DNA of 42,575 nt from the NCBI GenBank assembly GCA_017744495.1, contig JAGIBE010000122.1, positions 1,496-44,070 of the forward strand, read 5' to 3'. Position numbers and translations under genes: made by a program. The notes beneath the pieces are model-generated. The model did not search any database. It saw only the letters and a program-made list of their open reading frames with translations, and had not been told where the DNA came from. Shown here in pieces: positions 23,777-42,150 of the stretch. How positions within the stretch are numbered: the stretch's first letter is position 1; every line of letters begins with the position of its first letter. Source of the DNA: Caulobacter sp. Its GTDB lineage: Bacteria > Pseudomonadota > Alphaproteobacteria > Caulobacterales > Caulobacteraceae.

Positions 23777-24994
23777 ATGATGCGCACCATCTCCGCGGTT
23801 CGAAACCTCCGGAGTCCTCTGACCGTGCCCCTCGCCCTCTACGCCCTGACTGTCGGCGCCTTCGGGATCGGCGTCACCGAATTCGTCATCATGGGCCTGC
23901 TGATGCAGGTCTCGGCCGACCTCGGCGTCTCGATCCCGCAGGCCGGCCTGCTCATGACCGGCTACGCCCTGGGCGTGTTCGTCGGCGCCCCGATCCTGAC
24001 GATCGCCACCCGCCGCCTGCCGCGTAAGACCACCCTGCTGGTATTGATGGCTATCTTCACGATCGGCAATGTCGCCGCCGCGTTGGCCCCGACCTACGGC
24101 CTGCTGATGGTCGCGCGGATCGTCACGGCCCTGGCTCACGGGACGTTCTTCGGCGTCGGCTCGCTGGTCGCCGTCAGCTTGGTCCCGCCCCAGCGCAAGG
24201 CCTCGGCCATCGCCATCATGTTCACCGGCCTGACCCTGGCGACCCTGCTGGGTGTGCCGTTCGGCTCCTGGCTGGGCCTAGCCTTCGGCTGGCGCGCCAC
24301 CTTCTGGGCCGTGGGCGCGATCGGCCTCCTGGCCTTCGTCGTGCTGGCCGCCCTGGTCCCGCGCGAAAAGGAAGTCGCCGAACCCGCCCCGCTGCGCGAG
24401 GAGTTCGCCGTCCTGGCTCGCCCGCAGGTGCAGATGGGCCTGGCCATGACCGTCCTGGGCTTCGGCGGTGTGTTCGCGGTCTTCACCTACATCCAGCCGA
24501 TCCTGACCGAGCTGGCCGGCTTCTCGAAAGAAGCCGTCTCGCCGATCCTGCTGGTGTTCGGCGCCGGCCTGGTCGGCGGCAACCTGTTGGGCGGACGTTG
24601 GGCCGATAAGGCCCTGGCCCCGGCCCTGCTGGGGAGCCTGGCCATCCTGACCCTGGTGCTGGTCGCCTCGGCCTTCGGCTTCCACGATCGGATCGGGGCG
24701 GTGGTCGCCGCCTTCGGTCTCGGCGCGGCCGCCTTCGCCACCGTCGCCCCGCTGCAGATGCGGGTCCTGTCGCAGGCCGGCGGCGCGGGCCAGGGCCTGG
24801 CCTCCAGTCTCAACATCGCCGCCTTCAACCTGGGGAACGCCTTCGGGGCCTGGCTCGGCGGGGCGGTGATCGCCCACGGCCCGGGCCTGGCCGCCGTGCC
24901 CTCGGTCGCCGCCGCCGTGCCTCTGTCGGCCCTTGCCCTGGCCGCCTTCAGCCTCTCCCTTGAGCGCCGCGTTTCCCGCGTCGCCGCCCTCTGA
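23777..24994 (+). CDS. MFS exporter, DHA1 family (AraJ/YdhP/NepI-like)
   Basis: The 405-residue protein has 12 membrane segments and DHA1 motifs: LALYALTVGAFGIGVTEFVI in helix 1, PILTIATRRLPRKTTL as loop 2-3 motif A, and ARIVTALAHGTFFGVGS in helix 4. Relatives export arabinose, purine ribonucleosides or drugs. The annotated ATG at 23777 has no convincing ribosome site. A GTG at 23825, ten bases after GGAG and directly before PLALYALTVGAF, where many homologues begin, is a credible alternative start. Divergent from the LysR gene and 21 bases ahead of the aldo/keto reductase, with which it is probably co-transcribed. Confidence 0.88.
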   Translation: MMRTISAVRNLRSPLTVPLALYALTVGAFGIGVTEFVIMGLLMQVSADLGVSIPQAGLLMTGYALGVFVGAPILTIATRRLPRKTTLLVLMAIFTIGNVAAALAPTYGLLMVARIVTALAHGTFFGVGSLVAVSLVPPQRKASAIAIMFTGLTLATLLGVPFGSWLGLAFGWRATFWAVGAIGLLAFVVLAALVPREKEVAEPAPLREEFAVLARPQVQMGLAMTVLGFGGVFAVFTYIQPILTELAGFSKEAVSPILLVFGAGLVGGNLLGGRWADKALAPALLGSLAILTLVLVASAFGFHDRIGAVVAAFGLGAAAFATVAPLQMRVLSQAGGAGQGLASSLNIAAFNLGNAFGAWLGGAVIAHGPGLAAVPSVAAAVPLSALALAAFSLSLERRVSRVAAL

Positions 24995-27858: not shown

Positions 27859-29088
27859 TCAGACCGCGCCGGTCTTCATCAGGGCGGCGCGGGAGGGCAG
27901 GAGCTGGGCCATAAAGGGCAGCAGGGCCGCGCCCATGGCCGCTCCGTCGGCCGAGGTCGCGGCCCGCTCGACCCGCGCCAGGGCCGGCACGTCGACGATC
28001 GCCGCCAGGCGGTCGTTGACCGCCGTCACCAGCCGGTCGAGCAGGTCGGTCGGCAGGCGGCCGCCGACATAGATGGCCTGCGGATTGACCAGGCAGCTGA
28101 TCGAAACGAACGGCTGGACCAGCAGCTTGGCCGATAGGGCGATCCAGTCCTCGACCAGGGCCTGGCCTTGCGGCGTCAGCTCGCCCAGCTGGTCGGGGCG
28201 GGTCACCACGATGCCGCCGGCCTCCAGATGCGCGTAGAGGGCCGACAGCGAGACCACCTCCTGCAGCGCCCGGGCCGGGGTTTCGGGCGAGGCGATCGGC
28301 AGGAAGCCGATCTCGCCGCTTCGGCCTTGGGCTCCGCGGAAATAGTCGCCCTCGATCACCAGACCGCCGCCCAGACCCGACGACACCAGGACGTAGAAGA
28401 AGCTAGGTCGGCGCAGGCCGTGGCCGAACTGCAGCTCGCCCAGGGCCGCGGCGGCGGCGTCGTTCTCCAGGAACACCGGCAGCGCTTGGGGCAGAATGTC
28501 TCCCATCAGCTTGCCGATGTCGGCCGTGCTCCAGACGTCGTAGTCCCCGGGACGATGCGGCAGGTCCACCCGGCCCAGGTCGTCGGGCAGGGCCACGCCG
28601 ATTCCCGACAGGCGCGGCGGCGCGCCCTTCCAGGCGGCAAGCATCTTGCGGATCTGGGCCTTGCAGAACTTGGCGACGTCGGCGGGCAGGGGGAACTCGA
28701 TCTCCTGGCTGGCCCGGGCCCGCACAGCGCCCAGCAGGTCCAACATCACCACGGTGATGTGGTCGCGGTCGATGTTCACCCCGATCGACAGGCAACCGTC
28801 GGGGTTGATCGTCAGGTTCATGGCGGGCTGGCCGCGCGCGCCCTGGACACGGCCGGCCTCCAGGATGAGGCCGTCGTCGAGCAGCCGCTTGGTGATGTTG
28901 GCCACGGCCGGCGGGGTCAGGCCGGTGATCTGGGCCAGGGTCACGCGGGTGATCGGGCCGCCCACCCGGATGGCCTGCAGGATGACCCGCTGATTGTGAT
29001 CGCCGACCCGCTCCAGATTGGCCCCGGAAAGGCTGGCGCCGGCGGTGCGCTTCCGGTTCGATTTCCGAGAAAGTTCCAGGGACGGCAT
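27859..29088 (-). CDS. ROK family transcriptional repressor (NagC/XylR type)
   Basis: The 409-residue protein has an N-terminal winged helix (about 28-85: HNQRVILQAIRVGGPITRVT, LTPPAVANITKRLLDDGL) fused to a ROK sugar-binding domain (IGVNIDRDHITVVMLDLLG; ENDAAAAALGELQFGHG). The zinc-cysteine cluster of ROK kinases and of NagC/Mlc is missing: after GEIGFLP there is no CxCGxxGC. It is divergent from a ROK kinase and probably represses it and perhaps the GH2 gene in response to a sugar. The shared gap contains AT-rich sequence suited to an operator. Convergent with the amine oxidase gene. Confidence 0.9.
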   Translation of the reverse strand: MPSLELSRKSNRKRTAGASLSGANLERVGDHNQRVILQAIRVGGPITRVTLAQITGLTPPAVANITKRLLDDGLILEAGRVQGARGQPAMNLTINPDGCLSIGVNIDRDHITVVMLDLLGAVRARASQEIEFPLPADVAKFCKAQIRKMLAAWKGAPPRLSGIGVALPDDLGRVDLPHRPGDYDVWSTADIGKLMGDILPQALPVFLENDAAAAALGELQFGHGLRRPSFFYVLVSSGLGGGLVIEGDYFRGAQGRSGEIGFLPIASPETPARALQEVVSLSALYAHLEAGGIVVTRPDQLGELTPQGQALVEDWIALSAKLLVQPFVSISCLVNPQAIYVGGRLPTDLLDRLVTAVNDRLAAIVDVPALARVERAATSADGAAMGAALLPFMAQLLPSRAALMKTGAV

Positions 29089-29267
29089 GCGGCGACCTTC
29101 GGCGAGACGCCCCTAGTAACATCGTGGCTGGCGATGGCGATAGCGGCGCTGCTTTCCAATAACGTAATTTGCTTTCTTTATTCTCCTGCGCCGACTATGA
29201 CGCAAATTGAAGCGCGCTGCGGCGTCGCTACGACAGGCTCGCGAACGAGCCGCTGGAGGAAACGGGT
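29089..29267. promoter_or_regulatory. Divergent regulatory region between ROK repressor and ROK kinase
   Basis: This 179-bp gap is clearly richer in A/T than its surroundings. AATAA (29158-29162) and TTATT (29178-29182) are inverted around ACGTAATTTGCTTTC-like sequence, reminiscent of the A/T-rich inverted operators of NagC/Mlc/XylR regulators. Just before the kinase start is a small hairpin GGCTCG-CGAA-CGAGCC (29236-29251) and then GGAGGA. Confidence 0.4.
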
Positions 29268-30188
29268 TTGATTCAAGTCGGCGTTGATTTTGGCGGCACG
29301 AAGATCGAGGCCGCCGCCTTATCGCCTGACGGCCGGTTCCTGGCTCGCGTGCGCGTCCCCAATCCCGGTTCCTATGACGCGGCCATTGTCGCGGTCCGCG
29401 ACCTGATCGCTCAGGCCGAGCACGAGGCCGGCGGGCGCGGTTCGATCGGCGTCGGGGCGCCGGGCTCGATCTCGCCGCGCACCGGCGTGATGCGCAACGC
29501 CAACTCCACCTGGTTGAACGGCCGCCGGTTCCGCGAGGATCTCGAGGCGGGGCTGGGGCGTCCCGTGCGCTTGGCCAATGACGCCAACTGCTTGGCCCTG
29601 TCGGAGGCTGTCGACGGCGCGGCCGCCGGTCTGGCGGGCGTGTTCGCCGTGATCATCGGCACCGGCTGCGGCGGCGGCCTGGCCTTCGACGGCAAGCTGG
29701 TCGAGGGCGCCAACGGCGTGGCCGGCGAGTGGGGCCACATCCCTCTGCCTTGGCCTAAGGCCGAGGAGTCGCCGGGGCCGGCCTGCTGGTGCGGCCGTCA
29801 CGGCTGTCTGGAGACCTGGATTTCGGGCACGGGTTTTCGGCGCGACCACGCCGAGCGCACGGGCCAGTCCCTGACCGGACAGGAGATCGTCGCCGCCGCC
29901 CGGGCCGGCGACGCCGGGGCCGTCGCAAGCTTCGACCGCTATCTGGACCGCCTGGGCCGGGGCCTGGCGGTGATCGCCGACATCGTCGATCCGGACGCCT
30001 TCGTGTTCGGGGGCGGCATGTCGAACGTGGCCGAGCTCTATGAGCGCCTGCCGGCCTTCGTTGAGCCGCACGTGTTCTCCGACGGCTGGAGCGCCCGGCT
30101 GGCCCCGGCCAAGTGGGGCGACTCTTCGGGCGTGCGCGGCGCGGCCCGCCTGTGGACCCAGGCCGAAGCGGCGGCCGCCCTGCCGTGA
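29268..30188 (+). CDS. ROK family sugar kinase (fructokinase/mannokinase type)
   Basis: The 306-residue kinase phosphorylates a hexose with ATP in the cytosol. The phosphate-1 motif is DFGGTKIEAA (8-17), the sugar-binding segment includes LANDANCLALSE, and phosphate-2 is IGTGCGGGLAFDG. The ROK zinc site is complete: GEWGHIPLP followed by C173-W-C175-G-R-H-G-C180. The Mak-like pattern favours fructose or mannose over glucose, but N-acetylhexosamine cannot be excluded. The start is a TTG at 29268 with GGAGGA seven bases upstream. It precedes the GH2 gene by 59 bp, so it may phosphorylate the sugar that the hydrolase releases. Confidence 0.9.
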   Translation: MIQVGVDFGGTKIEAAALSPDGRFLARVRVPNPGSYDAAIVAVRDLIAQAEHEAGGRGSIGVGAPGSISPRTGVMRNANSTWLNGRRFREDLEAGLGRPVRLANDANCLALSEAVDGAAAGLAGVFAVIIGTGCGGGLAFDGKLVEGANGVAGEWGHIPLPWPKAEESPGPACWCGRHGCLETWISGTGFRRDHAERTGQSLTGQEIVAAARAGDAGAVASFDRYLDRLGRGLAVIADIVDPDAFVFGGGMSNVAELYERLPAFVEPHVFSDGWSARLAPAKWGDSSGVRGAARLWTQAEAAAALP

Positions 30189-30247
30189 TCTGAGCGGCGC
30201 GGATCCAGACGAAGCGGCCCGAAAGAGGCCGGATCGAGGAGGAAGAC

Positions 30248-33200
30248 ATGACGACCGAGTTCATCCGACTTCGCCTGTCCGTACTGGCGACCTGCGTGGC
30301 CCTGGTCGCCGCTCCGGTCTACGCTCAGTCCGTCTACGGCCCTTACAACGCCGACCTCCCGCGCGGTGGGGACGGTCTATCGAAGTCCCTGTCGGGCGCC
30401 TCTCTGCCGGCGGACGGACCGTGGTCGTTGCAGGGCTGGATCTTGCCGGCGACGGCGTCCCCGGGGCGTGTCGTGGTGGCCGGGGTTGGCGATCCGGTGA
30501 GCGGCGGACGATTCCTGGTGCTGGAGAATGGAGTCCCCGCCGTGGTGGTCGGCTCGGCGGTCGTGAAGGGGCCCGCCGTCCTGAGAACCGGGGGCTGGAC
30601 CCACGTGGCGGCGGTGTCGGACGGGACCAGGGTCGCGCTCTATGTCGACGGCGCCAAGGCGGCCGAAGGGCCTGCGGGGCCGTTCGCCTCGGCCGCGACC
30701 GTTCAGCTGGGCCCGCGTCACCTGAGCGCGCCGTTCGGCGGCAAGGTCGCCGGCTTCACCGCTCAGACGGGCGCCCTGACGCCCGCCGAGCTGAAGGTCC
30801 TGGCGAGGACCAGGCCCGACCCCGCCCTGACGGTCTACGAGCCCGGCAGCCCAACCTGGCCGGTGCAAGTGCGCCAGATGTACGGCCAGGTCACCCCGCA
30901 GGACGCCTGGACTCGGCCCAGGACCAAAGCCCCATTCTCCAAGCCCGTGGCCGTCGCGCCCTATGCCGGTCCTGCCCTGATCGCCGCGCCCGCCTCGGAA
31001 GGCGCCGCCGCCTGGATCCTGAAGCGTTGGTCGCTTGTCGAAGCCCCGAAAGTCAGAGATGGCGGGACAGCGCTGTCGAAGCCCGGATACGATGCGAAAG
31101 CCTGGTACGCGGCCACCGTGCCCGGCACCGTGCTGACCACCCTGGTCGATCGCGGCGTCTATCCGGACCCCGATTATGGCCTCAACAACACCGTCATCCC
31201 CGAAAGCCTGAACAAGCAGGACTACTGGTACCGCACCGAGTTCACCGCGCCGTCGGGGCAGGAGGGCCGTTACCAACAACTGGTGTTCAAGGGCGTCAAC
31301 TACGCCGCCGAGGTATGGCTGAACGGCGAGAGGCTGGGCGCGCTGAAGGGCGCCTTCGCGCGGGGCCGGTTCGACGTCACCGGCAAGCTCAAGCCGGGCG
31401 CCAACGCCCTGGCGGTCAAGGTCTCGCCGCCGCCGCATCCGGGCCTGGCCCACGAGGAGAGCCTGACCGCCGGGGTAGGTGAGAACGGCGGCATGCAGGC
31501 TCTGGACGGCCCGACCTTCATCGCCAGCGAGGGCTGGGACTGGATTCCCAGCGTCCGCGACCGCAACACGGGCCTCTGGCAGGACGTGGTGTTGGCCTCG
31601 ACGGGTCCGGTGCGGATCGGCGACACCCACGTCGTCACCACGCTTCCTAAGGCGGACAACAGTGTCGCCGACGTCGAGATAACCGTTCCGGTCGAGAACC
31701 TGACCGGCGCGCCGGTCCAGGCCTCGGTGCGGGCCGCCTTTAACGATGTCGCGGTGGAGAAGACCGCCACGCTCGCTCCCGGCAAGACCGAGATAGTGTT
31801 CAAGCCCGTCGACTTCCCGCAGCTGTCGATCAGGAATCCCAAGCTGTGGTGGCCCAACGGCTACGGCCAGCAGACCCTGTACGGCATGCGCGTGCTGGCA
31901 GATGTCGGCGGCAAGAGCAGCGACCAGAAGGACAGCCGCATCGGCCTGCGTCAGATGACCTACGAGCTGTCGCTGATGGATTCGCACGGCGAGCTGCGTC
32001 GGGTCGAGGTCGACTTCTCCAAGGCCCGCCAGCTGGGCCAGGACGTCACCGACGGCAGCCACGAAGGCGTCCGCAAGGTCGCCGACGGCTGGGCCACGTC
32101 CCTGACCAAGGAGGGCGAGACCTCGCCGGCCGTGAAGGATGTCCCCGACAACGGCCTGACGCCCTATCTGGTCCTCAAGGTCAACGGGGTGAAGATCGCC
32201 GCGCGGGGCGGCAACTGGGGTACCGACGACTGGCGCAAGCGGGTGTCGCGCGAGCGGCTGGAGCCCTATTTCCGCCTGCACAAAAACGCCCACCTCAACA
32301 CCATCCGCAACTGGGTGGGCCAGAACACCGAGGACGTCTTCTACGACCTGGCCGACGAGTACGGCCTGCTGGTGCTGAACGACTTCTGGGCCTCGACCCA
32401 GGACTACCAGCTGGAACCGCAGGACGTACCGCTGTTCCTGGCCAACGCCGCGGACGTGATCAGTCGCTACCGCAACCACCCCTCGATCGCCCTGTGGTTC
32501 GGCCGCAACGAGGGCGTACCGCAGCCGATCCTCAACGAGGGTCTGGAAAGGCTGGTCCACGACCTGGACGGCACGCGCTGGTACACCGGCAGCTCCAACC
32601 GCGTGAACCTGCAGAACAGCGGACCGTACAACTACCGGGAGCCCGAGACCTATTTCACCGAGCACGCCAAGGGCTTCTCGGTGGAGGTCGGCACGCCCTC
32701 GTTCCCGACCCTGGAGGCGTTCGAAGCGGCCGTGCCCGCCGCCGACCGCTGGCCGATCAGTGACGTCTGGGCCTATCACGACTGGCATCCCACCGGGAAC
32801 GGCGCGACCAAGACCTTCATCGACGCCATGACCGCCAAGCTGGGCGCGCCGACCAGCCTCGAGGACTTCGAGCGCAAGGCCCAACTGATGAACTACGAGA
32901 CCCATCGGGCGATCTTCGAGGGCATGAACCAGGAGCTGTGGACCAAGTCGTCCGGTCGCTTGCTGTGGATGACCCAGCCGGCCTGGCCCTCGACCATGTG
33001 GCAGATCCTCAGCCACGACTACGACACCCACGCCTCGTATTACGGGACCCAGAAGGCGGCCGAACCGGTCCACGTCCAGATGAGCCTGGCCGACCGTCGG
33101 CTGGCGGTGGTCAATAACGGTCTGACGCCGATCATCGGGGCGTCCTTGCGGGCCCGGGTCTTGGGGCTGGACGGCAAGGTCCTGGCCGACCACACCTCGC

Positions 33201-33679
33201 GGATCGACGCCGGCGCGGACAGCACGACCCTGGGCGAGACGCTGGACCTGTCGGGTTCGCTGGGTCAGGGCGCGGCGATCGTGCGCCTGGACCTGGCGGC
33301 CGCCGACGGGGCGGCGTTGTCCAGCAACCTCTACTGGCTGGCCAAGGACGCCGAGGGCGAGCGCCAACTGTCGGCCATGGCGGCTCAACCCGTCTCGATC
33401 GCGGCCGCCTTGTCGGCCTCCGGCGCCGAAACGGCGGTGACGGTGGCCCTGGCCAACACCGGCGCGGCTCCAGCCCTGAACGGCAAGCTGACCCTGATCG
33501 ACGCCAAAGGCGAACGCATCCTGCCGGCCTACTACGCCGACAACTACGTCTCGCTGCTGCCGGGCGAGAAGCGGACGGTCGAGGTCAGATATCCCGGCCC
33601 GGCGCGGCCCGGCGCCAAGATCGAGCTGCGCGGCTGGAACGTCACCCCGGCGGTCGCGACCATCAGGGAGGCCCGCTGA
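30248..33679 (+). CDS. Exported GH2 glycoside hydrolase with N-terminal LamG-like domain
   Basis: The 1143-residue enzyme begins with a signal peptide (about 1-26, ending VYA), then a concanavalin/LamG-like domain (about 55-185: GPWSLQGWI, GGWTHVAAVSDGTRVALYVDG). The GH2 part follows: sugar-binding jelly roll with QDYWYRTEF, immunoglobulin-like domains, and a TIM barrel with NTIRNWVGQNTEDVFYDLAD. Putative catalytic residues are the acid/base Glu755 in WFGRNEG and the nucleophile Glu813 in FSVEVG. The pattern is closest to exo-beta-glucosaminidase and beta-mannosidase-like GH2 branches. The stop overlaps the SGNH gene by one base (TGATG), so the two enzymes are coupled. A perfect 12-bp operator-like palindrome lies in the coding region at 31066-31077. 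Confidence 0.88.
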   Translation: MTTEFIRLRLSVLATCVALVAAPVYAQSVYGPYNADLPRGGDGLSKSLSGASLPADGPWSLQGWILPATASPGRVVVAGVGDPVSGGRFLVLENGVPAVVVGSAVVKGPAVLRTGGWTHVAAVSDGTRVALYVDGAKAAEGPAGPFASAATVQLGPRHLSAPFGGKVAGFTAQTGALTPAELKVLARTRPDPALTVYEPGSPTWPVQVRQMYGQVTPQDAWTRPRTKAPFSKPVAVAPYAGPALIAAPASEGAAAWILKRWSLVEAPKVRDGGTALSKPGYDAKAWYAATVPGTVLTTLVDRGVYPDPDYGLNNTVIPESLNKQDYWYRTEFTAPSGQEGRYQQLVFKGVNYAAEVWLNGERLGALKGAFARGRFDVTGKLKPGANALAVKVSPPPHPGLAHEESLTAGVGENGGMQALDGPTFIASEGWDWIPSVRDRNTGLWQDVVLASTGPVRIGDTHVVTTLPKADNSVADVEITVPVENLTGAPVQASVRAAFNDVAVEKTATLAPGKTEIVFKPVDFPQLSIRNPKLWWPNGYGQQTLYGMRVLADVGGKSSDQKDSRIGLRQMTYELSLMDSHGELRRVEVDFSKARQLGQDVTDGSHEGVRKVADGWATSLTKEGETSPAVKDVPDNGLTPYLVLKVNGVKIAARGGNWGTDDWRKRVSRERLEPYFRLHKNAHLNTIRNWVGQNTEDVFYDLADEYGLLVLNDFWASTQDYQLEPQDVPLFLANAADVISRYRNHPSIALWFGRNEGVPQPILNEGLERLVHDLDGTRWYTGSSNRVNLQNSGPYNYREPETYFTEHAKGFSVEVGTPSFPTLEAFEAAVPAADRWPISDVWAYHDWHPTGNGATKTFIDAMTAKLGAPTSLEDFERKAQLMNYETHRAIFEGMNQELWTKSSGRLLWMTQPAWPSTMWQILSHDYDTHASYYGTQKAAEPVHVQMSLADRRLAVVNNGLTPIIGASLRARVLGLDGKVLADHTSRIDAGADSTTLGETLDLSGSLGQGAAIVRLDLAAADGAALSSNLYWLAKDAEGERQLSAMAAQPVSIAAALSASGAETAVTVALANTGAAPALNGKLTLIDAKGERILPAYYADNYVSLLPGEKRTVEVRYPGPARPGAKIELRGWNVTPAVATIREAR
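31066..31077. promoter_or_regulatory. Intragenic copy of the GACAGCGCTGTC palindrome
   Basis: This perfect 12-bp palindrome lies within the GH2 coding sequence, about 820 bases from its start. It is identical to the copies upstream of the receptor (34505-34516) and the GH3 gene (39347-39358). It may be a secondary binding site of the same regulator, or chance. Confidence 0.35.
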
Positions 33680-34437
33680 TGCTGGATCGTCGCACTTTGT
33701 TGGCGGCCGGGCTGGCCGCGCCCAGTCTCGCCCTGGCCCAGACGACCTCGGCTCCGTCTGCCCCGACATGGCCCAGCGACGAGGAGCGACTGCGCACCGA
33801 TTGGCCGTTCCTGCAGCGCTACAGGACCGAAAACGCCGCCGACCGCGATCTGCCGCTCGCCGCTCGCCGGGTGGTCTTCATCGGCGACTCGATCACTCAG
33901 GGCTGGCGCGACTCCCATCCCGCATTCTTCTCCGACAACGGCTTCCTGGGTCGAGGCGTCAGCGGCCAGGTGACGGCCCAGATGCTGGTGCGGTTCTGGT
34001 CCGACGTGGTGGCTCTGAAGCCGGCCGCTGTGCACATCCTGGCCGGGATCAACGACATCGCCCAGAACGCCGGGCCCTATGATCCGGTCGCCACCCAGGC
34101 CAACCTTCAGGCCATGACCGCCCTGGCCCAGGCCAACGGGATCGCGGTGATTCTGTCGACGGTCCTGCCGGCGGCCGAATTCCCCTGGAGGCCTGGACTG
34201 GGCCCACCGGCCAAGGTCCGGACCCTGAACGACTGGCTGCGGGTCTACGCGGCCCAGCGTGGCGCGGTCCTGGCTGACTACACCCGCGTGATGGACGACG
34301 GTGCAGGCGGCATGAAGCCGGGCTTGGCCTATGACGGCGTGCACCCGACTCGCGAAGGTTACGCCGTCATGGAGCCTGTGGTCCTGGCCGCCATCGCTCA
34401 GGCCCTGAGCCGCCCCCGTATCGGGCGGCCACGCTGA
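33679..34437 (+). CDS. Exported SGNH/GDSL hydrolase (carbohydrate esterase)
   Basis: The 252-residue enzyme shows the four SGNH blocks: catalytic Ser71 in VVFIGDSITQG, Gly in GVSGQVTAQM, Asn in LAGINDIAQNAG, and Asp-x-x-His in YDGVHPTREGY. The N-terminus (DRRTLLAAGLAAPSLALAQ) looks like a Tat or Sec signal, so it acts outside the cytosol. It probably removes acetyl groups from a sugar polymer. The start ATG shares one base with the GH2 stop. Typical relatives are found in polysaccharide loci next to glycosidases, which supports joint action with the GH2 enzyme on an acetylated glycan. Confidence 0.9.
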   Translation: MLDRRTLLAAGLAAPSLALAQTTSAPSAPTWPSDEERLRTDWPFLQRYRTENAADRDLPLAARRVVFIGDSITQGWRDSHPAFFSDNGFLGRGVSGQVTAQMLVRFWSDVVALKPAAVHILAGINDIAQNAGPYDPVATQANLQAMTALAQANGIAVILSTVLPAAEFPWRPGLGPPAKVRTLNDWLRVYAAQRGAVLADYTRVMDDGAGGMKPGLAYDGVHPTREGYAVMEPVVLAAIAQALSRPRIGRPR

Positions 34438-34490
34438 ACGTGACCTGAAAGCCGCATAACGAAAATCAGTTTCTGAATTTCCGCCCAGAT

Positions 34491-34516
34491 TTGACAGCGC
34501 TGTTGACAGCGCTGTC
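34491..34516. promoter_or_regulatory. Tandem operator and probable -35 of the TonB-dependent receptor gene
   Basis: TTGACAGCGCTG occurs twice in exact tandem (34491-34502 and 34503-34514). Each unit contains the ACAGCGCTGT palindrome (34494-34503 and 34505-34516, the second extended to 12 bp). The second TTGACA can act as a -35 with TAGGTT (34526-34531) as a weak -10 at 17-bp spacing, so a bound repressor would cover the promoter. The centred-CG form is typical of LacI-family operators. Confidence 0.65.
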
Positions 34517-34572
34517 TGTTCTCCATAGGTTGAGGCTACCGGCACTGAAAAATAAGCCGGAAATCCACGGGA

Positions 34573-34630
34573 GGATGCGCACGCATCCCTCAAACTTCGC
34601 GTCTTGGCTCGATCGGCACAGCTGATCGAG
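34573..34630 (+). other. Leader hairpins upstream of the TonB-dependent receptor gene
   Basis: Two small stem-loops lie in the roughly 130-base leader: GGATGC/GCATCC (34573-34588) and CTCGATC/GATCGAG (34608-34614 with 34624-34630). They may stabilise the message of this abundant protein. The receptor's AGGGGAA site lies just downstream. Confidence 0.4.
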
Positions 34631-34666
34631 AACGAGAACTGCTGCCGCACATCAGGGGAATGCACA

Positions 34667-37618
34667 ATGACTACAAAGTCTTATCGATCACGCACGGCTT
34701 TGCTCGGCGCGGCTTCGGCCATGGTGCTGCTGAGCGCCGGTCAGGCCTTCGCTCAGGCCGCACCCGCCAAGACCGAGGAACCATCTGAGGTTGACGCGGT
34801 CGTGGTCACGGGTTTCCGGGCTTCGCTGGCCAACGCCCTGAGCCTTAAGAAGAACTCGGATCAGATCATCGAGTCGATCACGGCCGAGGACATGGGCAAG
34901 TTCCCGGACCAGAACATCGCCGAGTCGCTGCAGCGCTTGCCGGGCGTGCAGATCGACCGCGAGAACGGCCAGGGCACCAAGGTCCGCATCCGGGGCCTCG
35001 ACCAGAACATCACCTTGCTGAACAGCGACACCTTCCTGTCGGGTCTCGAAGCCTTCCGCCTGGGCGAAGGCAACCTCAAGCAGACCAATTCGCTGGAAGG
35101 TATCCCGTCCAACCTGCTGGCCGGCGTCGACGTGATCAAGTCCCCTCAGGTCGACCAACTTGCCGGCGCCTTGGGCGGTACGGTCAATCTGAAGACCCGC
35201 AAAGCGCTGGACATGAAGGACGACTTGACCCTGGCGCTGGACGTCGCGGGCAACCAGGGCTCGACCGACGGCAAGCTGAAGCCGAACCTCTCGGCGGTGG
35301 TCGGCTACAAGATCACGCCCGACTTCGGTCTGCTGGGCAGCTTCACCTATGACGAAAACTGGATCGACACCGAAGTGCTCAGCGGAGAGAACCGCGGCGG
35401 CTGGGCGTATCTGAACCGCCCCACCGCGACGGGCAACAACCAGGTCCAGACGGGCACGACCAATATCTGGTCGCCGGAATACCGCTACAGCAACAACCGT
35501 CACCAGGAGCGTAAGCGCACCGCCTTCTCGCTGAACGCCGACTGGAACGTCTCCGACACCGTGACCCTGTCGGCAGACTGGTTTCACTCGGATCTGAAGA
35601 TCTTCACGGGCGAGCATTCGCTGAAGTGGGCCTACGCCAACGAAAACGCGATGTACAACTCGCAGGGCCTGGTGAAGAGCAGCAACGACGTGCTGCAGTC
35701 GGGCACGGTCACGGCCAACTCGTCGGAAGGCGACACCTTCGCCAAGAACGCCAAGGCCAAGACCGACAACGTGCAGTTCGCCCTCGATTGGAAGGGGACC
35801 GAGCGCTGGAGCGGCGAGGCGCGCGCCGCCTGGTCGAAGACCGACTACAAGTCCACCTCGGGCCAGGTCGACACGCGCTATACGCAGTACACGGTGCGTG
35901 ACGGAATCGCGGGCTTCGCGCCGAACTCCACCGCCCCAGCCACGGCGACCTACAGCTTCACCAACGGCGCCTATCCGATGTTCACGCCGGCGGCCAACCT
36001 GGCTACGGCGATGACGACGCCGAGCTCGGTGTTCTTCAAGTCGCACTGGGCGTTCGGCGATAAGTCCAAGCTGGACGACAAGGCCATTACCGGCGACCTG
36101 CACTACCGTCCCGAGTTCGGCGAAGGTGCCAACATGCTGCTCAGCGCCGGGCTGCGTTATTCGGAAAACAAGGTCACCTCCGACTACGGTCGCTACCTGG
36201 CCGACCTGTCGAGCAAGGGTGAGCTGCCGGCCAGCGCCCAGGGCACGACCGACCACGGCGTGTTCGTCGACTGGACGCCGCTGGGCTACTTCATGGACGG
36301 CGCCATCGGCCTGAAAAAGTGCGACATCGCCTTCTACGGCTGTTCGCGCTTCGGCAACTCGGTCGCCGTGAACACGCCGTACCAGACCGCCGCCACGGCC
36401 CCGAACCGCGCGGTCACCGACAACGTCCACGGTGTGAACGCGATCTTCCAGGACTACGGGCAGATGAAGAACCCGGCGAACTGGATTCAGGCGCTGTATC
36501 CATCGACCAAGTTCGCTTGGTACCGCGACCCGATCGAGTCCTTCAAAATCAAGGATGAGACGACTTCGGGTTATGTGATGGCGGACCTGGGCGACGACGG
36601 CTACCACATCAACGCCGGCGTCCGCGTGGTGCACACCAAATTGGTCATCGACTCGTCCAACACGCCGGTCACGCCGCTGTGGTGGGGCACCGACAGCTGG
36701 AACGGCATCCTGAAGAATCCGGACACGGCCCGGACCGTGCGCGAGTACACGGATGTCCTGCCGCAGATCAACGCCGTGTTCAACGTCACTGATCAGGACA
36801 AGGTGCGGGCCAGCGCCGCGCGCGTCGTGGCCGCCCAGAACCTGTTCGATCTGGGCCAGGGCGCGTCGTACAACTTCACCCGCTCGTCCACCCCGGGGCC
36901 GAACTTCGACAAGTTCCTCTACACCAACGGCAGTGGCGGCAACCCGAACCTCGACCCGTTCCGCGCGTCGCAGTTCGACCTGGCCTGGGAGCACTATTTC
37001 GGCAGCCAGGGCCTGATCTCGGCCGGCGTCTTCTACAAAACGATCGACTCGTTCATCGTCCCCGAGACCTTCCCGGTGACGATCAAGGACCAGTCGGTGG
37101 CCGGCGCCACCACCGGCACCTTCAACTCAGTGGTCAACGGCGAGGGCGGCTCGATCAAGGGTCTGGAAGCCCAGGCGCAATACGCGTTCGAGAACGGGTT
37201 CGGCTTCACGGCCAACTACACCTATTCGGACTCCAAATCGCCCGAGTTCACCGACTTCTCAGACAACCTGCCGATCCCAGGGGTGTCCAAGCACGCCTTC
37301 AACGTCCAGGGCTATTTCGAGCGGGGGCCGTTCTCGACCCGCCTGTCCTACGCCTGGCGTGACAAGGCCTATCTGGGCCGCTTCAGCTTCGGCGCCGACC
37401 CCGACCTGCACCGGCTGGGCATCTACAATGAGGCCTACGGCCAACTGGACGGCCAGGTCGCCTACGACGTCACCGAGGATCTGAAGGTTACGCTGGAAGG
37501 CTCCAACCTGACCAAGGAGGACAACAAGGCCTACCTGCAGTTCTCGGAGCTGCCGTTCCGTTTCGTGTCGGGCGATCGGCGCGTAACGTTCGGTCTCCGC
37601 TACCGCTTCGGCCGCTAG
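34667..37618 (+). CDS. TonB-dependent receptor, carbohydrate type
   Basis: The 983-residue outer-membrane protein has a signal peptide (ALLGAASAMVLLSAGQAFAQ, about 11-30), a TonB-box-like EVDAVVVTGFR (41-51), a plug domain with FPDQNIAESLQRLPGVQIDR, VRIRGLDQ and GGTVNLKTRK, and a long beta-barrel ending in GLRYRFGR. The size and plug pattern fit the large Caulobacter/Xanthomonas class that imports oligosaccharides with TonB energy. The ATG at 34667 follows AGGGGAA and gives a proper signal; the frame from 34604 is not used. Two strong hairpins separate it from the halogenase-like gene, which is probably co-transcribed. Tandem operators sit in its promoter. Confidence 0.93.
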   Translation: MTTKSYRSRTALLGAASAMVLLSAGQAFAQAAPAKTEEPSEVDAVVVTGFRASLANALSLKKNSDQIIESITAEDMGKFPDQNIAESLQRLPGVQIDRENGQGTKVRIRGLDQNITLLNSDTFLSGLEAFRLGEGNLKQTNSLEGIPSNLLAGVDVIKSPQVDQLAGALGGTVNLKTRKALDMKDDLTLALDVAGNQGSTDGKLKPNLSAVVGYKITPDFGLLGSFTYDENWIDTEVLSGENRGGWAYLNRPTATGNNQVQTGTTNIWSPEYRYSNNRHQERKRTAFSLNADWNVSDTVTLSADWFHSDLKIFTGEHSLKWAYANENAMYNSQGLVKSSNDVLQSGTVTANSSEGDTFAKNAKAKTDNVQFALDWKGTERWSGEARAAWSKTDYKSTSGQVDTRYTQYTVRDGIAGFAPNSTAPATATYSFTNGAYPMFTPAANLATAMTTPSSVFFKSHWAFGDKSKLDDKAITGDLHYRPEFGEGANMLLSAGLRYSENKVTSDYGRYLADLSSKGELPASAQGTTDHGVFVDWTPLGYFMDGAIGLKKCDIAFYGCSRFGNSVAVNTPYQTAATAPNRAVTDNVHGVNAIFQDYGQMKNPANWIQALYPSTKFAWYRDPIESFKIKDETTSGYVMADLGDDGYHINAGVRVVHTKLVIDSSNTPVTPLWWGTDSWNGILKNPDTARTVREYTDVLPQINAVFNVTDQDKVRASAARVVAAQNLFDLGQGASYNFTRSSTPGPNFDKFLYTNGSGGNPNLDPFRASQFDLAWEHYFGSQGLISAGVFYKTIDSFIVPETFPVTIKDQSVAGATTGTFNSVVNGEGGSIKGLEAQAQYAFENGFGFTANYTYSDSKSPEFTDFSDNLPIPGVSKHAFNVQGYFERGPFSTRLSYAWRDKAYLGRFSFGADPDLHRLGIYNEAYGQLDGQVAYDVTEDLKVTLEGSNLTKEDNKAYLQFSELPFRFVSGDRRVTFGLRYRFGR

Positions 37619-37632
37619 CACCGGGGCAAGGC

Positions 37633-37710
37633 GCGGCCATGGTTCCCGGTGGGCCATGGCCGCCGCCCTTGAGCGCCGCCGTCGCCCGGCTCAAGATCGC
37701 CGGGCGACGG
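37633..37710 (+). other. Two strong intercistronic stem-loops
   Basis: Stem 1: GCGGCCATGG pairs with CCATGGCCGC (37633-37642 with 37654-37663, loop 11). Stem 2: CCGTCGCCCGG pairs with CCGGGCGACGG (37679-37689 with 37700-37710, loop 10). Neither is followed by a T-run, so full termination is unlikely. They could protect the receptor message from 3' exonucleases or reduce read-through into the halogenase-like gene. Confidence 0.65.
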
Positions 37711-37738
37711 AGCGTCATCAGGCTGGAGGGACGGCGAG

Positions 37739-39277
37739 ATGTCGGACGAGCATTGGATCCAGACCATCGTCATCGTCGGAGGCGGAAGCGCCGGATGGAT
37801 GACCGCCGCGGCCCTGGCGCGGGGCCTGGACCGCCGCTACTGCATCCGGGTCGTGGAATCCCAGGACATTGGGGTGGTCGGCGTCGGTGAAGCCACGATC
37901 CCGCCAATCCGTCTGTTCAACGCCATGCTGGGCCTCGACGAGGCCGAGTTCATGCGTGAGACCCAGGCCACCTACAAGCTGGGCATCCGGTTCCGCGACT
38001 GGGGCGCGGTGGGTCAGGACTATTTCCATCCGTTCGGCGTCTACGGCCTCAACGCCGAACTCGGTCATTTCTTCCAGTACTGGCTGAAGCTGAACCAGGA
38101 GGGGCCCCATCAAGAAGGGGGTGCCCTCGCCCTGTCCGACTATTCGCTGTGCGCCCAGGCCGCCAAGGCGGGCCGGTTCGACCGGCAGAGCGACGATCCG
38201 CGCGACCCGATGTCGACCTTCGGTTTCGCCTATCATTTCGACACCATACTCTACGGCCAGTATCTGCGCCGCTTCGCCCAGAAGCTGGGCGTGGCCCGCA
38301 CCGAGGGCGAGGTTGTCCAGGTTGACCAGAATGCCGAGACCGGCTTCGTCACCGCGTTGCGGCTGAAGTCCGGCCAGGTCGTAGAAGGCGATCTCTTCAT
38401 CGACTGCTCGGGCTTCCGAGGCCTGCTGATCGAGCAGACGCTCAAGGCCGGCTACGAAGACTGGTCGGACCTGCTGCCGATGGACCGCGCGGCCGCCGCG
38501 CCCTGCGCCCTGAAGGGGCCGCTGTCGCCCTACACCACCTCGACGGCTCGCGAGGCCGGCTGGCAGTGGCGAATCCCGCTGCAACACCGGGTGGGCAACG
38601 GCTACGTCTATTCCAGCCGTTTCATTTCCGATGACGACGCGGTCGCCGCCCTGACGGCCAATCTCGAGAACGCGCCCCTGGCCGAGGCGCGCCTGCTGCG
38701 GTTCAACACCGGTCGTCGCCGCAAGATGTGGGACAAGAACGTTGTCGCCATCGGCCTCTCCAGCGGCTTCATGGAGCCCCTGGAGTCCACCAGCATCCAT
38801 CTGGTCCAGGCCAGCATCAACAAGCTGCTTCAGCACTTCCCCGACCGGTCGTTCGCCCCGGCCAACCGCGATGTCTACAACCGCCGCATCGCCACCGACA
38901 TGGAGACGATCCGCGACTTCCTGGTGCTGCACTACAAGGCCACCGCCCGCGACGACGCGGCCCTGTGGTCGTATGTGCGCGGGATGGCGATCCCTGACTC
39001 CCTGGCCGAGCGCATCGCCCTGTTCGAGGAACGCGGCCAGCTGGTCATTCATCCCGACGAGATGTTCACGCCGACCTCGTGGCTGGCGGTGCTGCTGGGG
39101 CAGGGCGTTCGACCCAGATCCTACTCGCCGCTGGTGGCGGGCCAGGACAGTCGGGCGATCGCCGACGGCTTCCGCAATATGAAGGCCCTGATCGCCCGCC
39201 GCGTCGAGGCCATGCCCAACCACGCGGACTATCTCAAACACCACGGCATGTGGGCTGCGCAGGCCGCGATGGCCTAA
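37739..39277 (+). CDS. Tryptophan-halogenase family flavoenzyme
   Basis: The 512-residue protein matches FADH2-dependent halogenases (PF04820). The flavin motif is IVIVGGGSAGWMTA (GGGSAG at 14-19), the second flavin strap includes VGVGEATIPPI, the catalytic-type Lys80 is in ATYKLGIRF, the halogenase signature WQWRIP is at 275-280, and the Glu349 equivalent is in MEPLESTSIHL. It needs a flavin reductase for FADH2, absent nearby. No tryptophan or antibiotic genes are present; instead it follows a TonB-dependent receptor, as in several Xanthomonas and Caulobacterales loci whose enzymes halogenate indoles in vitro. The physiological role in glycan loci is unknown. GGAGGG precedes the ATG. Confidence 0.88.
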   Translation: MSDEHWIQTIVIVGGGSAGWMTAAALARGLDRRYCIRVVESQDIGVVGVGEATIPPIRLFNAMLGLDEAEFMRETQATYKLGIRFRDWGAVGQDYFHPFGVYGLNAELGHFFQYWLKLNQEGPHQEGGALALSDYSLCAQAAKAGRFDRQSDDPRDPMSTFGFAYHFDTILYGQYLRRFAQKLGVARTEGEVVQVDQNAETGFVTALRLKSGQVVEGDLFIDCSGFRGLLIEQTLKAGYEDWSDLLPMDRAAAAPCALKGPLSPYTTSTAREAGWQWRIPLQHRVGNGYVYSSRFISDDDAVAALTANLENAPLAEARLLRFNTGRRRKMWDKNVVAIGLSSGFMEPLESTSIHLVQASINKLLQHFPDRSFAPANRDVYNRRIATDMETIRDFLVLHYKATARDDAALWSYVRGMAIPDSLAERIALFEERGQLVIHPDEMFTPTSWLAVLLGQGVRPRSYSPLVAGQDSRAIADGFRNMKALIARRVEAMPNHADYLKHHGMWAAQAAMA

Positions 39278-39346
39278 TGCGGCCGACGCCAAGGTCTTTC
39301 TCAACCGTCAGGGGTTAAAGCCAAGGTACCGCTATCAAAATGTCTG

Positions 39347-39358
39347 GACAGCGCTGTC
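39347..39358. promoter_or_regulatory. LacI-type operator candidate upstream of the GH3 gene
   Basis: GACAGCGCTGTC is a perfect 12-bp palindrome identical to the receptor operator at 34505-34516. Its position just after a possible -10 fits repression by roadblock or occlusion. It links the GH3 gene and the receptor gene to one regulator. Confidence 0.6.
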
Positions 39359-39575
39359 AATCCATGGTGCAGTCAAGGTCGTAGTGAAGGGGCGTCAGAC
39401 CCCGTGCAGGGAAGGGAACACTTGAAACCCGCGCGCCCGGCAGCGGCGAGCGGTGTCCATCGAAATCCTATCCGTCCCGTTCCAGCGCCGATCCGTCGGC
39501 GGGGACGACACGCCGCCGTCAGACCCCTCCGGCGCCGGCGCGACTGGATCCCCTTCATCGGGGGCTCTCCAAACT

Positions 39576-39607
39576 CCGGCGCGACGATGTTCTCCCCGTC
39601 GCGCCGG
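39576..39607 (+). other. Terminator-like stem-loop in the GH3 leader
   Basis: CCGGCGCGACG (39576-39586) pairs perfectly with CGTCGCGCCGG (39597-39607) around a ten-base loop, followed by TTCTTT. The 11-bp stem with a short T-rich tail 62 bases before the GH3 ATG could be an attenuator, or the end of a small leader RNA. Confidence 0.55.
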
Positions 39608-39669
39608 TTCTTTGCCGCGCAATTTCCGCCCGCGCCCAAGTCGCCCGGGCTGCTTCTCGAAGGTGTTGA

Positions 39670-42150
39670 ATGACCGTTTCGCCCCGTCGCCTGCTGATTT
39701 CGGCCCTTGTCGCCTCGACCGGTCTGGCGGGTGCGACGGCCCTAGCGCAGTCGACTTCGGCCCAGTCGAGTTCGTCCGCGATCGCCCATCCCGACCGGTG
39801 GCCCGCCGCGGCCAGTCCGGCGGCGATCACCGACGCCAAGACCGAGGCCTTCATCACCCGATTGATGGCCAAGATGAGCGTCGAGGAGAAGGTCGGCCAG
39901 ACCATCCAGGGCGACATCGCCTCGATGACCCCGGCTGATCTGGAGAAATATCCGCTGGGTTCGATCCTGGCCGGCGGCAACTCGGCCCCCGGCGGCGACG
40001 ACCGCGCCCCGCCGAAGGCCTGGATCGACCTGGTCGACGTCTATCGCAAGGAGGCCCTGGCCGCCCGGCCGGGCCACACCCCGATCCCGATCCTGTTCGG
40101 CATCGATGCCGTGCACGGCCACAACAACATCGTCGGGGCCACGATCTTCCCGCATAACATCGGCCTGGGCGCCATGCGCGACCCGGCCCTGATCCGCCGT
40201 ATCGGCCAGGCCACGGCCGAGGAAGTGGCGGTGGTCGGCGGCGACTGGACCTTCGGTCCGACGGTGGCCGTGCCCCGCGATGATCGCTGGGGCCGCAGCT
40301 ACGAGGGCTACGCCGAGGACCCCGAGGTGGTGAAGTCCTATTCGGGGCCTATGACCCTGGGCCTGCAGGGCGAGTTGAAGCCCGGCCAGACTCTGGGCGC
40401 GGGCCACATCGCCGGCTCGGCCAAACACTTTCTCGCCGACGGCGGCACCGAAGGCGGCAAGGATCAGGGCGACGCGGTGATCTCCGAGCAGGAGCTGGTC
40501 GCCATCCACGCCCAGGGCTATCCACCCAGCATCGACGCCGGCATCCTGACGGTGATGGCCTCGTTCTCCAGCTGGAACGGCCAGAAGATCACCGGCAACA
40601 AGACGTTGCTGACCGACGTGCTGAAGGGCCGGATGGGCTTCCAGGGTTTCGTGGTCAGCGATTGGAACGCTCACGGACAATTGCCCGGCTGCACCAACAC
40701 CAGCTGCCCCCAGGCGATGAACGCGGGTCTGGACATGTACATGGCCCCCGACAGCTGGAAGGGCCTCTACGACAATACCCTGGCCCAGGTGAAGTCGGGC
40801 GAGATCCCCATGGCGCGGCTGGACGACGCCGTGCGCCGCATCCTGCGGGTCAAGGTCAAGACCGGGCTGTTCGAGCGCACGGCGCCGACCGTCCAGGGCA
40901 AGCTGGACCGTCTAGGCGCGGCCGATCACCGGGCCATCGCTCGCGAGGCCGTGGCCAAGTCGCTGGTGCTGCTGAAGAACGACGGCGTCCTGCCGGTCAA
41001 GCCGGGCGCCAAAGTGCTGGTGGCCGGCGCCGCCGACGACATCGGCAAGGCCTCGGGCGGCTGGACCCTGACCTGGCAGGGTACGGGCAACAAGAACAGC
41101 GACTTCCCACACGGCCAATCGATCTGGGGCGGGATCGAGCAGGCGGTGAAGGCGGCCGGCGGCCAGGCTGAACTGGCGGCCGACGGCGCCTTCAAGACCA
41201 AGCCCGACGTCGCCATCGTCGTCTTCGGCGAGGATCCCTACGCCGAGTTCCAGGGCGACGTGGCCCATCTCGGCTACCAGCTGGGCGACAAGACCGATCT
41301 GGCTCTGCTCAAGAAACTGAAAGCCCAGGGCATCCCGGTCGTCTCCGTGTTCCTGTCGGGCCGCCCGCTGTGGGTGAACCCCGAGATCAACGCCTCGGAC
41401 GCCTTCGTCGCGGCCTGGCTGCCGGGCAGCGAAGGCGGCGGCGTCGCCGACGTGCTGGTGGCCGGCAAGGACGGCAAGCCGGCCCGCGACTTCCAGGGCA
41501 AGCTGGGCTTCTCCTGGCCCAAGCGCGCCGATCAAGGGCCGTTGAACCGCGGCCAGCCCAGCTACGACCCGCAGTTCGCCTACGGTTACGGCCTCAGCTA
41601 CGCCAAGCCTGGTCAGGTTGGAACCCTCTCTGAGGATGCGGGCAATGTCGCCGCCGCCGGCAGCATCGACCGCTATTTCGTCGACGGCCGTCTGCCCGCG
41701 CCGTGGCGGATGGACTTCCTGGGGGCGGGCTCGGTCAAGACGATCGACGCCGGCGCCCAGGAGAACGCCCGCCAGATCGCCTGGACCGGCCAGGGGATGT
41801 TGGCCATCCACGGACCGGCCATCGACCTGTCGCGCCAGACGACCGGCGACATGGCCGTGCAGGTCCGCTACCGGATCGACGCCGCCCCGACGGCCCCGGT
41901 GACCATGAGCATCGGCTGCGCCGACGACGCCTCGTGCGCCGGCACGCTGGACGTTTCCAGCCTGGTCAAGGCCGCCAAGCCGGGCGAGTGGCGCAGCGCG
42001 AAGATCAAGCTGTCCTGCTTCCAGGCCGTCGGCGCGAAGATGGACCACGTCACCGCGCCGTTCGTGATCGGCACGACCGCGCCGTTCGGCGTCACCCTGA
42101 CCGAGGTGCGCTTGGCCTCCAACGAGGGCGACGCGATCTGTCCGAAGTAG
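39670..42150 (+). CDS. Exported GH3 beta-glucosidase/exo-beta-glucanase with C-terminal ExoP-type domain
   Basis: The 826-residue enzyme has a signal peptide (about 1-26, ending ALA), a GH3 N-terminal barrel (about 55-390) with ILFGIDAVHGHNN, SAKHFLADGG and nucleophile Asp331 in VVSDWNAH, and a GH3 C-terminal domain (about 420-640) with LVLLKNDGVLPV. The acid/base candidate is the Glu in VFGEDPYAEFQGD. A carbohydrate-binding-like ExoP-type domain (about 670-820) follows, with three Cys. This matches the ExoP/CelD group that removes glucose from beta-1,3/1,4 glucans and cellodextrins. GAAGG lies seven bases before the ATG. It probably shares a regulator with the receptor gene. Confidence 0.92.
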   Translation: MTVSPRRLLISALVASTGLAGATALAQSTSAQSSSSAIAHPDRWPAAASPAAITDAKTEAFITRLMAKMSVEEKVGQTIQGDIASMTPADLEKYPLGSILAGGNSAPGGDDRAPPKAWIDLVDVYRKEALAARPGHTPIPILFGIDAVHGHNNIVGATIFPHNIGLGAMRDPALIRRIGQATAEEVAVVGGDWTFGPTVAVPRDDRWGRSYEGYAEDPEVVKSYSGPMTLGLQGELKPGQTLGAGHIAGSAKHFLADGGTEGGKDQGDAVISEQELVAIHAQGYPPSIDAGILTVMASFSSWNGQKITGNKTLLTDVLKGRMGFQGFVVSDWNAHGQLPGCTNTSCPQAMNAGLDMYMAPDSWKGLYDNTLAQVKSGEIPMARLDDAVRRILRVKVKTGLFERTAPTVQGKLDRLGAADHRAIAREAVAKSLVLLKNDGVLPVKPGAKVLVAGAADDIGKASGGWTLTWQGTGNKNSDFPHGQSIWGGIEQAVKAAGGQAELAADGAFKTKPDVAIVVFGEDPYAEFQGDVAHLGYQLGDKTDLALLKKLKAQGIPVVSVFLSGRPLWVNPEINASDAFVAAWLPGSEGGGVADVLVAGKDGKPARDFQGKLGFSWPKRADQGPLNRGQPSYDPQFAYGYGLSYAKPGQVGTLSEDAGNVAAAGSIDRYFVDGRLPAPWRMDFLGAGSVKTIDAGAQENARQIAWTGQGMLAIHGPAIDLSRQTTGDMAVQVRYRIDAAPTAPVTMSIGCADDASCAGTLDVSSLVKAAKPGEWRSAKIKLSCFQAVGAKMDHVTAPFVIGTTAPFGVTLTEVRLASNEGDAICPK

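Follow-up and report, generated by a model that had tools for sequence, protein, structure and literature searches.

A conserved palindromic operator precedes the genes for a TonB-dependent receptor (TBDR) and a GH3 glycoside hydrolase in a Caulobacter sp. carbohydrate locus, and its copies there are probably operators of GluR, a LacI-family regulator whose gene stands at the end of the zwf-pgl-edd-glk operon. The locus lies in a 42,575-nt stretch of DNA (positions 1,496 to 44,070 of contig JAGIBE010000122.1, assembly GCA_017744495.1), which was analyzed as a whole and is called the window here; a further copy of the palindrome is embedded in the coding sequence of a GH2 glycoside hydrolase. 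The assignment to GluR was made because the sites occupy fixed positions in the receptor and GH3 promoters, because they are linked to gluR, and because the same sequence frame recurs before zwf, gluR, pyk, a gluconolactonase-family gene and sucC. Since the operator is most likely that of GluR, and GluR has been predicted to control core glucose genes, polymer scavenging and glucose metabolism appear to be placed under one common switch; DNA binding and repression by GluR at the window sites, as well as the nature of its inducer, are inferred from sequence comparison.

The 12-mer GACAGCGCTGTC was found at positions 31066-31077, 34505-34516 and 39347-39358 of the window and in none of 100 dinucleotide shuffles. 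In the genome examined (4,300,567 bases, or 4.30 Mb, on 290 contigs, about 85% complete) these three positions were the only exact matches, and the reversed control word gave none. A chance origin of the copies can thus be ruled out, as none was expected in the window against the three found and no further copy exists in the genome. The decamer ACAGCGCTGT occurs additionally at 34494-34503, but is a weak test by itself, since its four matches with one mismatch allowed were reached in 5 of 100 shuffles. The two copies near position 34500 are overlapping 14-mers within a 12-bp direct repeat (Table 1). A first-pass annotation, made from the letters of the window alone, had placed the three 12-mers and the fourth decamer exactly at these positions and had argued that several chance recurrences of a 12-mer in 42 kb are not expected, a claim that both the shuffles and the genome search bear out; the genome-wide motif scan it had proposed was carried out, and random scatter of the 12-mer in unrelated genes was not seen. 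A text search for the 14-mer gave, in the literature text that it covered, a paper on an artificial mannitol MtlR box as its sole match.

Conservation was followed in 75 loci obtained from a receptor scan of genome contigs, of which L032-L062 were taken as orthologous, while L063-L106, with receptors at most 37% identical, were excluded from the counts. With two mismatches allowed and within 210 bp of the start of the receptor match, the receptor operator was present in all 18 orthologous Caulobacter loci that include the 5' end of the receptor gene. A site before GH3 was present in all 16 orthologous Caulobacter loci that have GH3 downstream of the receptor (L060, which covers only the 3' part of the receptor, was counted for GH3 alone). 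In all 17 promoters examined, a TTGACA hexamer that overlaps the first half of the operator is followed at 17-18 bp by TAGGTT; in two loci outside this set, L044 and L056, TAGGTT is missing in the alignment. The receptor operator is a tandem with 12 bp between the copies in the window and in L033, and with 16 bp in eight loci of the C. hibisci group. Beyond the genus, TGACA-N4-TGTCA with at most one mismatch is found 5' of the receptor in 4/4 Asticcacaulis and 8/8 Niveispirillum-group loci, the sites of the latter group being flanked by receptor and GH3 genes that point away from each other. One excluded Caulobacter locus, L102 (receptor 36% identical), has no such site near its receptor. Gene calls were made by a program trained on the GC-rich window; for many of the distant L063-L106 loci it returned hardly any genes or none at all, and the intergenic labels of these loci were left unused. 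Of the suggestion that a shared operator ties together the GH2, receptor and GH3 genes, the part concerning the receptor and GH3 is supported by conservation; for GH2, the data support conservation of the intragenic site at the DNA level, control of GH2 by it being putative.

As to the regulator, a search of the genome turned up nine LacI genes, none of them on the window's contig, and a scan of the window for the LacI helix signature detected none. Together with the way in which the operator tracks gluR (see below), this gives good support to the expectation of a LacI-family protein encoded outside the window; its role in central glucose metabolism was not foreseen. One of the nine genes, L007 on contig C166, ends a zwf-pgl-edd-glk cluster and precedes pyk (zwf, edd, glk and pyk were confirmed by family, pgl by position only). 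Its placement is that described for GluR (CC2053) in PMC4052901, and it is taken as the GluR orthologue of this genome. That 2014 study predicted GluR computationally as a LacI-family regulator of Caulobacter central metabolism, and the target section of the article lists zwf-pgl-edd-glk, pykA, gnl-gfo, ppdK and sucABCD.

The genome's site pattern agrees with this prediction, as far as it is given in the article text. Exact TGACA-N4-TGTCA occurs 12 times compared with once for the reversed control, and nine of the ten sites whose context was examined are intergenic, among them those before zwf-pgl-edd-glk, gluR, the gluconolactonase-family gene and sucC; pyk is preceded by a one-mismatch site. 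Nine other Caulobacter genomes all have the zwf and gluR sites, and eight of them the pyk site. The main window copies, TGACAGCGCTGTCT and GGACAGCGCTGTCA, fit the frame of these core targets with one mismatch. Other genes behind exact or one-mismatch sites encode two GH5 enzymes, a second GH3, a halogenase-family protein, a 3-keto-disaccharide hydrolase, a siderophore-type TonB receptor and a Major Facilitator Superfamily (MFS) protein of the fucP/gluP kind that scored below model cut-offs.

Linkage provides a second line of evidence. The gene order zwf-pgl-edd-glk-gluR-TBDR-halogenase-GH3 was found in eight loci (L037-L042, L057, L061), with pyk directly after GH3 in seven and the contig ending within GH3 in the eighth. 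In HMWF025 (L171), the sole genome of the nine mentioned above that lacks the pyk site, the operator and then GH3 come after gluR. Three Asticcacaulis genomes (L172-L174) have related sites and GH3 in this place, the sites standing as far as about 1.8 kb from gluR. A survey of 61 Caulobacter genomes, with gluR called at E 1e-110, separated 45 genomes with gluR from 16 without. Using one GH3 match per genome (45 rows, paralogues left aside), 30 of the 45 were seen to have a GH3 homologue in the orientation of gluR and no more than 8 kb from it, which in 24 of them lies 157-419 bp downstream. The 12-mer was present in 44/45 genomes with gluR versus 6/16 without (Fisher p = 8.7e-7), and in 39/39 versus 5/11 among genomes at least 90% complete (p = 2.9e-5), compared with 18/45 versus 2/16 for the reversed word (p = 0.06; 0.29 among genomes at least 90% complete).

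Of the 125 copies of the 12-mer in the 61 genomes, we also inspected 39 others, chosen among the matches listed and with most of those skipped whose spacing resembled receptor-GH3 sets. Twelve of these AGCGCT-centred copies, among the matches listed, lie between gluR and GH3, another stands 5' of a glk-gluR-GH3 set (L216), and a further one precedes sucC (L212), where the window's genome has an AAGGCT-centred variant. Ten were called inside genes; as gene starts set by the script are approximate, the four among them that fall at receptor starts (L219, L221, L223 and L235) may be promoter sites instead. Both kinds of centre are thus encountered at sucC, the site being TGACAAGGCTGTCA in the window's genome and TGACAGCGCTGTCA in G027.

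Several points weigh against assigning the window sites to GluR. Core Caulobacter GluR sites have AACGTT, AAGGCT or AAGGTT as their centre (AACGTT or AAGGCT within the window's genome), whereas the window sites are centred on AGCGCT, so that a second regulator with a preference of its own is possible. Two exact sites have no evident tie to sugars, C18:837 near an acetyltransferase gene and C60:3435 before an efflux-like MFS gene, and a third, C222:19367, lies inside a gene. Six genomes without gluR have the 12-mer, the reversed word still gave 24 matches compared with 125 for the 12-mer in the 61 genomes, the co-occurrence statistics ignore phylogeny, and the window's genome is 85% complete. 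Finally, the GluR-like gene and GH3 are not neighbours in any of the four Niveispirillum-group genomes read (L175-L178).

The intragenic copy in GH2 calls for separate consideration. It is read in frame as ACA GCG CTG TC and falls into the variable stretch that separates the laminin-G domain from the GH2 domain; seven of eight GH2 genes, the window's included, have kept it. Of the 567 Thr codons that the seven genes contain, 22 are ACA, and among 770 invariant residues the ACA of this site is the only position at which all seven use the same rare codon (below 8% of the family). Owing to this unique position, selection seems to act on the DNA itself, which does not imply any particular role. 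The alternative, a coding coincidence retained by common descent and devoid of operator function, has to be taken seriously and in our estimate falls only somewhat short of an even chance: 818 bp of the GH2 frame precede the site and no start codon follows shortly after it, one relative (L044) lacks it, and codon identity is common among these genes, a single codon being kept in 25 of 42 invariant Thr columns. It would, however, have to account for the rarity of ACA and for the single column of this kind in an otherwise variable stretch. In our preferred reading, the GH2 copy is a site conserved within the gene that may serve as an auxiliary or roadblock operator. The auxiliary operator O2 of the lac operon is located inside lacZ. 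The likeness is that of a LacI-type site within GH2 coding sequence; the difference is that the main operators here are about 3.4 kb downstream of the GH2 copy, and an auxiliary or looping role is putative. We consider doubtful, and put forward only tentatively, a more comprehensive scheme in which the GH2-embedded LacI-type operator, maintained by its rare codon, and the receptor and GH3 operators would together let GluR govern the whole polymer-scavenging locus by roadblock or looping, with the receptor-halogenase pair behind the operator exchanged between lineages.

The main rival to GluR as the regulator is a GluR paralogue with the same recognition helix. Such a protein might share the operators, GluR and at least one paralogue competing so that glucose and oligosaccharide would be sensed at one site. 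TGACA-N4-TGTCA sites are indeed found near GluR orthologues and near several of the LacI relatives whose recognition helix is of the IK, MK or TK kind; yet six of seven genomes that have gluR and lack a match to the paralogue L009 (at E 1e-112) retain the sites, up to eight of them, and we regard competition as unlikely. Still less probable, in our judgement, is that the BglR-like L009 regulates the AGCGCT-centred sites and GluR is limited to the AACGTT/AAGGCT sites of central metabolism. The gene for L009 is located between two MFS transporter genes on contig C29, its recognition helix, SIKTVSRV, is identical to that of GluR, and it occurs in each of the ten named Caulobacter genomes that were tested and have a close GluR. 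Three BglR paralogues have been predicted for beta-glucoside operons in Caulobacterales, according to the text of PMC4052901. In G008, moreover, no close GluR was found, but the operator and GH3 (locus L044) are near an L009-like LacI gene, which at L179 has GH3 and a TGACAGCGCTGTCA site in its vicinity. These observations again count against GluR. Against L009 stand the persistence of sites in genomes without an L009 match, the proximity of GH3 to gluR in 30/45 genomes, and the nine L009 loci read, where TGACA-N4-TGTCA (at most one mismatch) occurred solely inside the gene, in 4/9, and no site preceded L009. Among the 15 genomes lacking both gluR and L009, five have the 12-mer.

Other regulators were rejected. 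LacI L004 neighbours uronate genes such as UxaC and has no TGACA-N4-TGTCA (at most one mismatch) in its locus, the locus of LacI L005 carries a perfect TGTTAGCGCTAACA, which is a different half-site, and a NagR-type regulator, whose motif in Shewanella may be similar, was dismissed because linkage points to gluR; the passages of PMC2996990 consulted contain no motif letters. The remaining five LacI genes were considered at the level of their helix sequences. Apart from this, TGTTAGCGCTAACA and TGATAGCGCTATCA are further LacI-like palindromes of the genome (L118:3570-3583, L108:4810-4823), which suggests that sister LacI regulators may use different half-sites. At L063, a receptor locus of the gammaproteobacterium Colwellia, several TGACAGCGCTGTCA-type sites adjoin a LacI gene that encodes the same recognition helix.

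With GluR as the preferred regulator, a GluR dimer seated over the TTGACA hexamer would obstruct RNA polymerase at the receptor promoter and act in a similar way at GH3. The dimer might be released by glucose or by an early metabolite of it; the receptor, the halogenase-family protein and GH3 would then be co-induced with the Entner-Doudoroff enzymes, which consume the glucose that these proteins provide. TBDR loci are numerous in Caulobacter and relatives, many of them without an assigned regulator or substrate; here, the GluR assignment suggests that the receptor and GH3 feed glucose to the Entner-Doudoroff pathway, and a purely computational regulon prediction is widened to outer-membrane uptake. 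The rare-codon signature is offered as a means of recognizing functional operators inside genes.

In common with the published GluR regulon (PMC4052901, as described in its text), the operator is palindromic, gluR ends zwf-pgl-edd-glk and has its own site, and pyk, a gluconolactonase-family gene and sucC are preceded by the motif in the window's genome. It differs in that the published target section contains no TonB-dependent receptor, halogenase-family or GH3 gene and in the AGCGCT centre of the window sites. In the literature listings covered by our searches, we found no paper assigning receptor or GH3 genes to GluR. As the published target section names neither receptor nor glycosidase, the window genes would be new targets for a known kind of regulator; the novelty is the extension of the predicted GluR regulon to outer-membrane uptake and glycan hydrolysis, plus the conserved intragenic site. 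BglR1-3, in the account of PMC4052901, share with the proposed regulator the LacI family and the connection to sugar-polymer genes, but linkage and co-occurrence here favour gluR. A receptor adjoining glycoside hydrolases and a sugar regulator is also the arrangement of the TBDR carbohydrate utilization loci in the portion of PMC1790865 consulted, and all three are present in the window. The putative master switch, by contrast, is here a distant regulator of central metabolism rather than one encoded in the locus.

Table 1. Features of the window (positions count from its first letter)
Feature	Coordinates	Strand	Remark
ROK-family repressor, NagC/Mlc-like	27859..29088	-	below curated cut-offs; candidate second regulator
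Divergent ROK/kinase promoter region, conserved AT-rich stretch	29089..29267	.	candidate ROK operator; 7-locus alignment
ROK-family sugar kinase, fructokinase-like	29268..30188	+	below curated cut-off
GH2 glycoside hydrolase with laminin-G and exo-beta-glucosaminidase Ig-like domains	30248..33679	+	
Intragenic operator copy in GH2	31065..31078	.	codons ACA GCG CTG
GDSL-type esterase/lipase	33679..34437	+	
Upstream copy of receptor tandem operator, TGACAGCGCTGTTG	34492..34505	.	5' of TonB-dependent receptor
Putative receptor promoter: TTGACA, 17 bp, TAGGTT	34503..34531	+	-35/-10 roles inferred
Main receptor operator, TGACAGCGCTGTCT	34504..34517	.	first half overlaps TTGACA -35-like hexamer
TonB-dependent receptor, TIGR01782	34667..37618	+	start codon taken from sequence
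Tryptophan-halogenase-family flavoprotein, PF04820	37739..39277	+	
GH3 operator, GGACAGCGCTGTCA	39346..39359	.	
GH3 glycoside hydrolase with Exop_C domain	39670..42150	+	

The genes of the locus (27859-42150) are arranged in the order ROK repressor (on the reverse strand), ROK kinase, GH2, GDSL esterase, TBDR, halogenase-family gene and GH3, with the end of the contig, which is that of the window, 425 bases past the GH3 gene. The first-pass annotation had pointed to the nearby repressor of the ROK type, which is present as described, and had proposed that two regulators may control one glycan locus; this is plausible, the ROK operator being a candidate only. The kinase, GH2 and esterase genes would probably answer mainly to the adjacent ROK repressor. 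In seven loci, the AT-rich stretch in the divergent promoter region between the ROK repressor and kinase genes ends in CTTTCTTTATTC. An MFS gene at 23777-24994, which might supply the inner-membrane sugar transporter of the locus, matched efflux and sugar-transporter models, all below their cut-offs.

The closest receptors among named genomes are those of Caulobacter loci L032, L033 and L048 (the last from Caulobacter sp. Root1455), at 92-94% identity. Compared with L034, the ROK repressor, kinase, esterase and GH3 of the window are 87-92% identical, the receptor 61% and the halogenase-family protein 48%. Because those four genes are this similar and the pair diverges, the receptor-halogenase pair (34667-39277) seems to have been swapped as a cassette behind a retained operator. 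An Rfam scan of the window returned one tRNA and nothing else. In the receptor leader (34539-34588), two conserved stem-loops are formed by CCGGC/GCCGG and GGATGC/GCATCC; the latter, which has no Rfam match, is invariant across 15 aligned loci, and its pattern occurs once in the genome.

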